In this document: positions 22,624 through 24,916 of the stretch, one piece after another | Layout: every line of letters begins with the position of its first letter | How positions within the stretch are numbered: position 1 is the stretch's first letter | From: an uncultured Gammaproteobacteria bacterium | GTDB taxonomy: Bacteria; Pseudomonadota; Gammaproteobacteria; Pseudomonadales; Azotimanducaceae | DNA: 46,029 nt | Reading direction: 5' to 3' | Assembly (NCBI GenBank): GCA_913051785.1 | Contig: CAJXCK010000006.1 | Coordinates: forward strand, 1-46,029 | The notes under the pieces: generated by a model | The model's input: the letters and a program-made list of their open reading frames with translations, nothing else | Told to the model about the DNA's origin: nothing | Database searches by the model: none | Made by a program: the position numbers and the translations under genes

Positions 22624-23007
22624 CTAGCGAGATAAATTTTCTCTATTTAACAGGAGGGACAAGATCAGAAAAAACCATCCGAAAAGAATGCAGAGTCCAC
22701 CTATAGGAGTAAGAGGCCCCCAAAGCGAATTTTTCGTTAAGACCAATAGATAGATACTACCGCTGAATAAAGCGGTACCAGCAATATAAGAGGCAATCAT
22801 GGCGATCGAGATCCTACTTACCGTGGTGAAAATAAGGGGGGTCACTAGTAACACTAGCGCGTGCCATATTTGATAATCTACTGCGGTTGTCCATGCCGCT
22901 CTTTCCGAGGGAGTCAAAATCAAGTGATGGGCCCCTATCGCTCCCATTCCGGCTCCCAAAAACCCAAATACCCCTCCGAACAGAACTGCTATATGGCGGG
23001 CGTTCAA
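22624..23007 (-). CDS. DUF423 small membrane protein (YgdD-like)
   Basis: A 127-residue membrane protein with about four hydrophobic helices. The N-terminus (IAVLFGGVFGFLGAGMGAIGAHHL) and the central YQIWHALVLLVTPLIF are the DUF423/YgdD signatures (G.GAFGAH..., YQ..HALALL), and TPIGGLCILFGWFFL closes it. Function is unknown. The TTG start at 23007 overlaps the rpoH stop as TTGA, so it is translationally coupled to rpoH and would share its promoter, including the CIRCE operator. That link to heat stress is notable but may be incidental. Confidence 0.88.
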   Translation of the reverse strand: MNARHIAVLFGGVFGFLGAGMGAIGAHHLILTPSERAAWTTAVDYQIWHALVLLVTPLIFTTVSRISIAMIASYIAGTALFSGSIYLLVLTKNSLWGPLTPIGGLCILFGWFFLILSLLLNRENLSR

Positions 23008-23867
23008 ATCTCTTCTTGCGCGACCAAAGTCCTCATCTTATTGATCGCGGCCAGCTCCAACTGCCTTATTCTCTCTGCCGAAACACCATATTCATCGGCC
23101 AATTCATGAAGAGTTGCCTTTGTATCGGAAAGCCAACGACGCTGAATAATATCTCTGCCTCTGTCGTCCAGCGTAGCCAGACCGTTCGATAGCTGCTCCG
23201 CGTGGCGCCTTTTTACATCTCTAGACTCGACGAGGTCCGCAGGATTCGGCGCATCGGAAGCCAAATAGTACGCTGGCGCAGAAGACTCCCCGTCATCTTC
23301 AGATTCAGGACTACCGTCGAACGCTAAATCGCTCGCACTCAGTCTGCCTTCCATCCTCGAAACTTCTTCCGAACTAACCCCCAAATCGTTGGCTATAGCA
23401 AGGGTTTCTTGCGGATCTAACCAGTTAAAGTTTTTTTTCGCGCTCCTCAAATTAAAAAACAGCTTCCGCTGCGCCTTAGTGGTCGCTACTTTGACGATTC
23501 TCCAGTTTTTCAGGATATATTCATGTATCTCGGCTTTGATCCAATGTGCCGCAAATGAGATTAACCTAACACCAAAAGAAGGGTCGAATCTTTTCACGGC
23601 TTTCATTAATCCAACATTTCCTTCTTGAACCAGATCCTCATAAGGAAGGCCATATCCTTTATAAGAGCGTGCCAGGTAAGCCACAAACCTTAAATGGCCA
23701 AAGACTAGCTTTCTCGCCGCATCAAGGTCTCCCTCCTCGGTGAATTTGATCGCGAGCGCACGCTCTTCTCCGGCTGACAGAATGGGAAACTGACCCAAAA
23801 TACGCAAATAGGACTCTATATCTAAACCGGGCGAGAGAGCCGGCAACTTCATGACGTCGGAATTCAT
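23004..23867 (-). CDS. rpoH: RNA polymerase heat-shock sigma factor RpoH (sigma-32)
   Basis: A 287-residue sigma-70-family factor. Region 1.2/2.1 has LGQFPILSAGEERALA; region 2 has LVFGHLRFVAYLARSYKGYGLPYEDLVQEGNVGLMKAVKRFDPSFGVRLISFAAHWIKAEIHEYI. The RpoH box QRKLFFNLRS confirms the sigma-32 group over sigma-70 or RpoS. Region 4 has RDIIQRRWLSDTKATLHELADEYGVSAERIRQLE. It directs heat-shock transcription. The start is the ATG at 23867 with GGAAG about 8 nt upstream. A perfect CIRCE operator lies 31 nt upstream. Gene order rpoH-ftsX-ftsE-ftsY is the classical one. Confidence 0.97.
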   Translation of the reverse strand: MNSDVMKLPALSPGLDIESYLRILGQFPILSAGEERALAIKFTEEGDLDAARKLVFGHLRFVAYLARSYKGYGLPYEDLVQEGNVGLMKAVKRFDPSFGVRLISFAAHWIKAEIHEYILKNWRIVKVATTKAQRKLFFNLRSAKKNFNWLDPQETLAIANDLGVSSEEVSRMEGRLSASDLAFDGSPESEDDGESSAPAYYLASDAPNPADLVESRDVKRRHAEQLSNGLATLDDRGRDIIQRRWLSDTKATLHELADEYGVSAERIRQLELAAINKMRTLVAQEEI

Positions 23868-23898
23868 CTGCTACTTCCAGTAACACTTTTGCGTGATA

Positions 23899-23925
23899 TT
23901 AGCACTCTTTACATCAGAGTGCTAA
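23899..23925 (-). promoter_or_regulatory. CIRCE operator (HrcA-binding inverted repeat) upstream of rpoH
   Basis: The element is TTAGCACTC, a 9-nt spacer, then GAGTGCTAA: both 9-bp arms are identical to the CIRCE consensus and the spacing is exactly nine. It lies in the 65-bp ftsX-rpoH gap, 31 nt before the rpoH ATG and 7 nt after the ftsX stop. No T-run follows in either direction, so it is not a rho-independent terminator. A TAATAT that could serve as -10 overlaps the rpoH-proximal arm (about 23897-23902). CIRCE is bound by the repressor HrcA, usually at groESL or dnaK. No hrcA gene is in the window. Confidence 0.93.
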
Positions 23926-23932
23926 TCAAAGT

Positions 23933-24916
23933 TTAGCTTACAAGCTCGTCCAAATTAATCAGTTCTCGACTAGCCGCTAACGTCGCACCGATAATTCCCA
24001 GGAACACACAACATAAGATAAGGACAGAACTGAAAAATAAATCGAACCCGACAATTAAGCCTTCTTGGCCGTAAGATAAATCCAAAGAGGAAAGGCTGGG
24101 CTCAATGATGCTTAACACCAAGGCCAGAATGAATAGCGCCATGAGACCGCCCCCGATTCCGAAAATAGCTCCCAGATAAATAAATGGCCGTCTCACTTGT
24201 CTTTTTGTAGCTCCCAAAAAATGAAAAACTTTTAGTTCTTCTAACTGACCCTGAATCGCAAAACTAATTGATATCGAGGTTACCAAAACTGAGGCAAGCC
24301 CAAATAAAAATGAGCTCAAAAGCCAGAACTTTTCAATCAGCGACTGCAAGGCTGCCAACCGCTCCAACCATTCATATTGCATGACCACTGAATCAACCCT
24401 GGGAAACTCTTCTATTTCAGATCTCAAAGTAATTAGGCGGCGCTCGTTGTAGCCGGCCGGCAATTCGACCAACATAATGGCTGGCAACACTGTATGGTCA
24501 ATACCCTCCAAGAGGTTGGGCTCTCTTGTTTGGTCCGAGATTGTTGACAAAAGGTCTTCAAAGGACTTCTCGCTTGACCTTACTTCTTTCACTTCTAATT
24601 CGGGATTTTGCGTTATCCAATCTTGCAGACTAATTATTTCGGATTCGGTTGTTCCAGTTTGAAAGTAAATTGCTAACCCTCCTGTTAGGCCGACCAATCC
24701 TTCAGCCTTCTCAGTATTCAAATGAGCGAGGTATAGCCCGGCCGGAAATGAAACCGTAAGCCCAAGGATAAACCAAGTCAGAAAACTGCTAGATAGCTCC
24801 AAGCTCATATTCTTCGATACTTCACTGGCAACACGAATGTGATCTCTAAGCCAATAGACTAGACGCCGGCGCCATTTTGGGGCGACGAATAGATCCCTAT
24901 CCAAATCCTCTTTCAA
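23933..24916 (-). CDS. ftsX: Cell division protein FtsX
   Basis: A 327-residue FtsX, the membrane subunit of FtsEX that signals to cell-wall amidase activators. A basic cytoplasmic N-terminus (VAPKWRRRLVYWLRDH) precedes the first membrane span (SFLTWFILGLTVSFPAGLYL, about 44-63). A periplasmic domain follows (about 70-195), then three more spans: FWLLSSFLFGLASVLVTSIS, FGIGGGLMALFILALVLS and SSVLILCCVFLGIIGATLA. KVFHFLGATKRQVRRPF is the conserved cytoplasmic loop. The start is a TTG at 24916; the first in-frame ATG would remove part of the N-terminus. It follows ftsE by 23 nt. Confidence 0.95.
   Translation of the reverse strand: MKEDLDRDLFVAPKWRRRLVYWLRDHIRVASEVSKNMSLELSSSFLTWFILGLTVSFPAGLYLAHLNTEKAEGLVGLTGGLAIYFQTGTTESEIISLQDWITQNPELEVKEVRSSEKSFEDLLSTISDQTREPNLLEGIDHTVLPAIMLVELPAGYNERRLITLRSEIEEFPRVDSVVMQYEWLERLAALQSLIEKFWLLSSFLFGLASVLVTSISISFAIQGQLEELKVFHFLGATKRQVRRPFIYLGAIFGIGGGLMALFILALVLSIIEPSLSSLDLSYGQEGLIVGFDLFFSSVLILCCVFLGIIGATLAASRELINLDELVS

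Follow-up and report, generated by a model that had tools for sequence, protein, structure and literature searches.

The rpoH gene of this uncultured gammaproteobacterium, which encodes sigma-32, is preceded by a perfect CIRCE operator. Quite probably, this operator serves the repressor HrcA in the control of rpoH. Bound HrcA would cover the core promoter of the gene, because the right arm of CIRCE is also part of a putative extended -10 element (TGCTAAtat). The site, an hrcA gene in the same genome, the conservation of the site among relatives, its co-occurrence with hrcA and the promoter-like constraints around it were observed directly. HrcA binding, repression and promoter use at rpoH are read from these sequence patterns. 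The window, i.e., the whole stretch of 46,029 nucleotides that was analysed, holds the following genes around the operator.

23004..23867, minus strand: rpoH, sigma-32, 287 aa (NCBIfam TIGR02392 rpoH_proteo, 373.7 bits, cut-off 323.1)
22624..23007, minus strand: DUF423 gene, overlapping the end of rpoH (PF04241, 81.9 bits)
23933..24916, minus strand: ftsX, upstream neighbour (best match FtsX, 175.6 bits, below the model cut-off of 255)
23899..23925, no strand assigned: CIRCE operator TTAGCACTC-N9-GAGTGCTAA, an exact pattern match that is kept upstream of rpoH

The operator is housed in the 65-bp gap between the ftsX stop codon and the rpoH ATG (23868-23932), and ftsX ends 7 bp from it. FtsX and FtsE are the top NCBIfam matches of their genes, yet both scores lie below the cut-offs. 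The initial annotation had described a perfect CIRCE at 23899-23925, 31 nt ahead of the rpoH ATG (23867-23865), and the pattern search agreed exactly. The operator sequence expected of an HrcA/CIRCE regulon member is present with 0 mismatches and occurs once in the window, where shuffling gave a mean chance expectation of 0.03 at up to 3 mismatches.

The genome from which the window comes (2.37 Mb, 134 contigs, 93.45% complete) contains two CIRCE-like sites with up to 3 mismatches, one upstream of rpoH (0 mismatches) and one upstream of groES (1 mismatch), the latter being the single further site yielded by the genome-wide search that had been proposed. The reversed pattern gave 0 matches in the whole genome at the same threshold, and the same scan found no CIRCE upstream of hrcA. 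A missing hrcA gene had been named beforehand as fatal to the proposal; the genome does encode hrcA, with one match (PF01628, E 3.1e-59; TIGR00331, 300.4 bits, cut-off 197.2) situated in an hrcA-grpE cluster. Putative control of the DUF423 gene by CIRCE has the gene overlap as its basis. A scan with the generally known sigma-32 consensus gave at best 9 of 13 positions upstream of rpoH or hrcA in this genome, which is unconvincing; upstream of groES, 10 of 13 positions matched, with CTTGATA. Since the best matches ahead of hrcA and rpoH are unconvincing, a negative feedback in which sigma-32 drives hrcA is unsupported.

In unstressed cells, HrcA on CIRCE would keep RNA polymerase away from the rpoH start and so limit rpoH transcription. 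When GroEL becomes occupied under heat or by misfolded protein, HrcA would be left without folding help and would leave CIRCE. The titration of HrcA by GroEL as the trigger is known from other bacteria. This would release rpoH and groESL together, no further CIRCE genes having been found in the genome, and the sigma-32 thus formed would then add its own regulon. Direct repression of rpoH by HrcA, as the initial annotation had suggested, is favoured by the presence of hrcA, the conserved arms and the co-occurrence with hrcA. A result given for Xylella counts against the repression reading, namely that hrcA and rpoH both rose under nitrogen starvation (PMC11764788).

Conservation was studied in 121 genomes of the window's family that were at least 85% complete, the own genome included. 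A match to rpoH was present in 117 of the 121 genomes, and likewise for hrcA. Upstream DNA of 150 rpoH copies (117 first copies and 33 second copies among the matches listed) was drawn from 30 loci and 120 stretches. Copies with at least 120 nt of upstream DNA were considered evaluable, i.e., 115 first and 32 second copies; two first copies (G086, where a perfect site is present, and G106) and one second copy (G118) were left out for short upstream DNA. CIRCE was found with up to 4 mismatches in 90 of the 115 evaluable first copies, spanning 31 of 35 genera, and with up to 2 mismatches in 79. Against these 115 regions, the reversed consensus always had at least 5 mismatches. The arms are therefore kept among relatives, the loss of which would have spoken against the initial annotation, and the site precedes rpoH orthologues beyond the family as well, in 35 of 40 hrcA-positive named loci (from the best 80 of at least 592). 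Its distance to the rpoH start varies among genomes from 15 to more than 200 nt.

Among evaluable family genomes, CIRCE was present in 88 of 111 with hrcA and in two of the four without an hrcA match (G024, G067). The site is missing from 25 of the 115 first copies, yet hrcA is present in 23 of the genomes concerned. In genus g33, six of seven first copies are without CIRCE despite hrcA being found, so the link between CIRCE and rpoH can be lost. Many family genomes have two rpoH genes. CIRCE was found in 24 of the 32 first copies there and, among the matches listed, in none of the 32 evaluable second copies (e.g., L222, L225 and L233). Such genomes possibly have one sigma-32 under HrcA control and another that is free of it.

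Some variation of the operator was also noted. The one-sided variant TTAGCAGTC-N9-GAGTGCTAA is frequent at rpoH and groES alike, which suggests that HrcA may tolerate a C to G change at position 7 of one arm. In genus g8, some groES upstream regions (L015, L020, L025, L027, L028, L031, L032) carry a second CIRCE-like repeat, full or degenerate, just upstream of the first.

Co-occurrence with hrcA was followed in named genomes, mostly of beta- and gammaproteobacteria, by taking the best 80 of at least 592 rpoH loci. Upstream DNA was available for 79 of these loci, and hrcA was searched in all 80 genomes. Among these best 80 loci, CIRCE with up to 3 mismatches stood upstream of rpoH in 35 of 40 hrcA-positive genomes versus 1 of 39 hrcA-negative ones (34 of 38 versus 1 of 39 once the apparent family members L034 and L036 are removed). 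The single hrcA-negative exception is a metagenome-assembled genome (L052). Five hrcA-positive loci failed the cut (L036, L053, L060, L099, L108); degenerate repeats are kept in L036, in L053 (Xanthomonas) and in L099, which lies near L053 in the rpoH tree. Within this sample of the best 80 loci, CIRCE-bearing lineages include Alcanivorax, Haliea, Parahaliea, Woeseiaceae, Methylocaldum, Nitrosomonas, Trinickia, Pandoraea, Sulfuritalea, Dyella and Luteimonas, and Pseudomonas, Halomonas, Enterobacterales and Vibrio have neither hrcA nor the site. On the rpoH tree, which is poorly supported, hrcA changes 8 times and CIRCE 7 times, with 2 independent pairs on supported branches. No significance is claimed for the co-occurrence, because the rows share descent and the independent supported pairs number only 2. 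In Pseudoalteromonas luteoviolacea (L083), a divergent hrcA match (E 1.2e-11) accompanies a perfect CIRCE before rpoH, and its tree neighbours are hrcA-less. Here, hrcA and CIRCE were possibly gained together.

The bases that CIRCE appears to share with the rpoH promoter are the following.

23896..23904, minus strand: putative extended -10 (pattern TGCTAnnnT), reading TGC-TAATAT, to which the right CIRCE arm and the 3 bases after it contribute
23920..23925, minus strand: TTAGCA, a candidate -35-like hexamer read from sequence; it is weak (4 of 6 positions match TTGACA), belongs to the left arm and is spaced 18 bp from the -10

The window retains the operator together with TGCTAATAT, and its -10 TAATAT and -35 TTAGCA are weak consensus matches. 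A generic promoter scan of the window did not list the embedded promoter, because its 8 of 12 matches, by count, fall under the cut-off of 9. A promoter-like constraint is seen at the base +3 past the right arm. T occupies this place in 122 of 126 rpoH sites, namely 87 of 90 in the family and 35 of 36 in other lineages. The other-lineage set admitted up to 5 mismatches and excluded L034, L036 and the chance-like L043. As a control, 22 groES sites were taken from the first 30 loci listed, an uneven sample mostly from three genera; T was found at +3 in nine of them. The rpoH and groES sites differ in this respect with a Fisher p of 6e-10, a value to be read with the non-independence of the rows in mind. 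At family rpoH sites, T at +3 is invariant in 30 of 31 genera, all three misses belonging to genus g8. The same genus contributes six of the nine T's in the groES set, its flank there resembling the rpoH flank. The TGn-TAnnnT pattern is thus constrained at rpoH beyond what the operator requires, and the right arm reading into TGCTAnnnT may be regarded as an extended -10. In genera g2, g9, g15, g22, g24 and g25, the bases past the -10-like T often form a C-rich stretch resembling CGCAGCCC. This stretch lies near the predicted transcription start and stands in place of a second dyad found elsewhere in the family (see below).

In many relatives, the operator also touches a putative sigma-E promoter. 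According to the literature, RpoE motifs consist of a -35 GGAACTT and a -10 TCAAA (PMC4890791), and the E. coli rpoH promoter P3 is RpoE-dependent (PMC8103513). At CIRCE, the sigma-E -10 place (T8, C9, A12) spans the junction between left arm and spacer. A occupies position 12 in 27 of 36 other-lineage sites, 43 of 90 family sites and 12 of 22 groES sites (from the first 30 loci listed). GAAC was counted where it begins 13-19 nt ahead of CIRCE. The family has it at this sigma-E -35 place in 34 of 90 sites, the other lineages in 27 of 36 and groES in 1 of 22, compared with 3 of 90, 2 of 36 and 1 of 22, respectively, at a control place (groES again from the first 30 loci listed).

A composite query, GGAAC-N10..14-TTAGCACTC-N9-GAGTGCTA, was run on 370 genomes across the class with no rpoH query involved. 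It matched in 67 of the 370 genomes and 47 of 274 genera, once each, and a control pattern gave 0 matches in the same 370 genomes. Thirty of the 67 loci were opened. In all 30, an rpoH gene 53-62% identical to that of the window follows on the same strand after 21-307 nt, and T stands at +3. The gap between GGAAC and CIRCE, for which 10-14 nt were allowed, was 11 nt in 23 of the opened loci, 12 nt in five and 10 nt in two. In RpoE-bearing relatives, the operator often also overlaps a putative sigma-E promoter, GGAACTT-N16-TCnnA. Given this overlap, HrcA would gate the relay from sigma-E to sigma-32 there.

The window itself differs from these relatives. One element corresponds to their sigma-E promoter.

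23914..23918, minus strand: TCTGA at the place of the sigma-E -10 in relatives; no matching -35 and no RpoE found

At the sigma-E -35 place, the window carries GTAAGCT and not GGAACTT, so that the P3-like spacing is not found, and the genome (93.45% complete) gave no TIGR02939 match for RpoE. TCTGA is probably a relic of a sigma-E -10, because there is no matching -35 and no RpoE was found in the genome. At E ≤ 1e-40, 22 of the 121 family genomes gave no TIGR02939 match for RpoE, the own genome (G000) among them; two of the 22 (G124 and G132) were assigned by elimination. Within the window's genus g1, as sampled, RpoE is present in two of eight genomes (G103, G115), both with GAAC, and the other six have neither. 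In G021, GAAC lies two bases outside the sigma-E -35 place. Across the family, GAAC occurs at 31 of 73 sites in genomes with rpoE and 3 of 17 without (p 0.09, not significant). As this association is weak, a loss of the sigma-E branch in the window's lineage is suggested but not proven.

The repeat could also be understood as a hairpin in the rpoH leader RNA that acts in mRNA stability, attenuation or as a thermometer rather than as a DNA operator, an alternative that the initial annotation had raised. Its position between ftsX and rpoH, where it could be transcribed by read-through from ftsX, and the perfect pairing of the window repeat are compatible with this. Arm pairing across the 90 family sites (810 cells) tells against it: 52 cells are broken, 43 are G-U and six are compensated, and 41 of the 90 sites hold a broken arm pair. 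The commonest change in the family, C to G at position 7 of one arm, places G opposite G (23 sites). The 36 other-lineage sites (324 cells) have few breaks, which would suit a hairpin; with five broken, 12 G-U and three compensated cells, they say little either way. Compensatory arm changes of the kind expected from an RNA hairpin are therefore not evident in either set. Moreover, the letters themselves are conserved across genera, beyond mere pairing, the sites track hrcA in the named genomes (best 80 of at least 592 rpoH loci), and an Rfam scan of 23600-24100 gave no match at the gathering score. The predicted transcription starts fall inside or after CIRCE, and the rpoH mRNA would therefore lack at least one of the arms. 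A hairpin as the main reading of CIRCE was rejected on the uncompensated breaks and the missing Rfam match, and we hold it to be very improbable.

A separate structure may nevertheless be present in the leader.

23869..23886, minus strand: imperfect dyad GTGTTACT-GGA-AGTAGCA (within 23868-23890), containing the Shine-Dalgarno sequence GGAAG at 23874-23878

The window leader folds with a predicted -5.2 kcal/mol, and the dyad is possibly a hairpin at the 5' end of the rpoH mRNA. A dyad of the form GTTAC(C/T)-N3-(G/A)GTA lies 12-24 nt past CIRCE in 32 of 116 family first rpoH copies. It holds the Shine-Dalgarno sequence when near the start codon, and it is kept in genomes with the start codon 51-183 nt off (G126, G021, G044, G060, G094, G111). 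The predicted openness of the window's Shine-Dalgarno sequence is scarcely altered between 15 and 45 °C (0.35 to 0.41); the shift is larger in a few relatives, e.g., G066. Similar palindromes precede HlyD-type and LysR genes. In five family genomes (L264, L266, L267, L269, L271), GTGTTACTTTTGGTAGCA-like palindromes stand upstream of HlyD-type membrane-fusion genes, where they are probably the operator of an efflux regulator. The rpoH dyad may be a second operator, a 5' stabiliser or a thermometer.

Another possibility is that CIRCE is real but of minor importance, HrcA binding there while rpoH is governed mainly by mRNA structure, DnaK and proteolysis, as in E. coli. Sigma-32 is usually controlled post-transcriptionally, and the dyad after CIRCE in 32 of 116 family first copies, which in the window contains the Shine-Dalgarno sequence, agrees with such control. 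CIRCE is also dispensable, as it has been lost from 25 of 115 first copies. A minor site would, however, hardly be expected to persist over 31 of 35 genera with its placement fixed relative to promoter elements, and this explanation appears unlikely. The nearby end of ftsX, merely 7 bp from the site, and a terminator scan of 23850-24080 that found none would also allow CIRCE to control mainly another transcript, for instance as a roadblock to read-through from ftsEX. Against this, the distance between CIRCE and rpoH varies from 15 to more than 200 nt, yet T at +3 and the GGAAC spacing are fixed to CIRCE, which indicates initiation at CIRCE. The roadblock is thus considered extremely improbable, and repression of rpoH by HrcA through an operator embedded in its promoter is the preferred reading.

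Two designs of bacterial heat shock are commonly distinguished, one with a repressor (HrcA/CIRCE) and one with a sigma factor (sigma-32). According to the present results, both designs may form one circuit in much of the beta- and gammaproteobacteria, with the repressor acting on the sigma factor's own promoter, and in many lineages the sigma-E relay may pass through the same HrcA-held promoter. A wider proposal, for and against which we see the balance as even, is that a three-way fusion represents the old sigma-32 wiring of these groups. There, CIRCE would share its bases with both a sigma-E promoter and a housekeeping extended -10, and HrcA would gate both envelope-stress and basal rpoH transcription. 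E. coli and Pseudomonas, which are without HrcA, would then be stripped-down descendants, and the window's lineage, with HrcA retained and RpoE lost, would be a second simplification. If there is one joint circuit, the best-studied E. coli and Pseudomonas would be poor guides to the ancestral wiring.

The CIRCE-rpoH arrangement is not unusual; it is widespread in HrcA-bearing beta- and gammaproteobacteria. In Bacillus-type class I heat shock, HrcA/CIRCE controls the groESL and dnaK operons. The system described here has the same repressor family and operator, and the own genome likewise has CIRCE before groES; the difference lies in the target, which is the gene of a positive heat-shock regulator. 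CIRCE before rpoH is a known type of site, because a perfect CIRCE was already predicted at -51 of Geobacter sulfurreducens rpoH (Rodionov et al. 2004, PMC545781, Table 8). The likeness is close, with the same perfect operator, the same gene and hrcA present. In what that paper tabulates, the rpoH site is given for one species of those studied, and CIRCE also precedes hrcA-grpE-dnaK-dnaJ, whereas none was found before hrcA in the own genome. Its account of the site describes no overlap with promoter elements; here, the site occurs in beta- and gammaproteobacteria with a putative embedded -10. CIRCE before rpoH was met solely in PMC545781 among the sources consulted, and an earlier description in beta- or gammaproteobacteria is possible (Permina and Gelfand 2003). 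The wide distribution and the two-promoter fusion were not found described in these sources. E. coli, included in the control set, gave no HrcA match in a profile search. As in E. coli rpoH P3 (PMC8103513) and for RpoE at Vibrio rpoH (PMC4890791), many site-bearing relatives carry a GGAACTT -35. In contrast to these promoters, the relatives' -10 region lies inside CIRCE, and the window has no such -35, nor was RpoE found in its genome.
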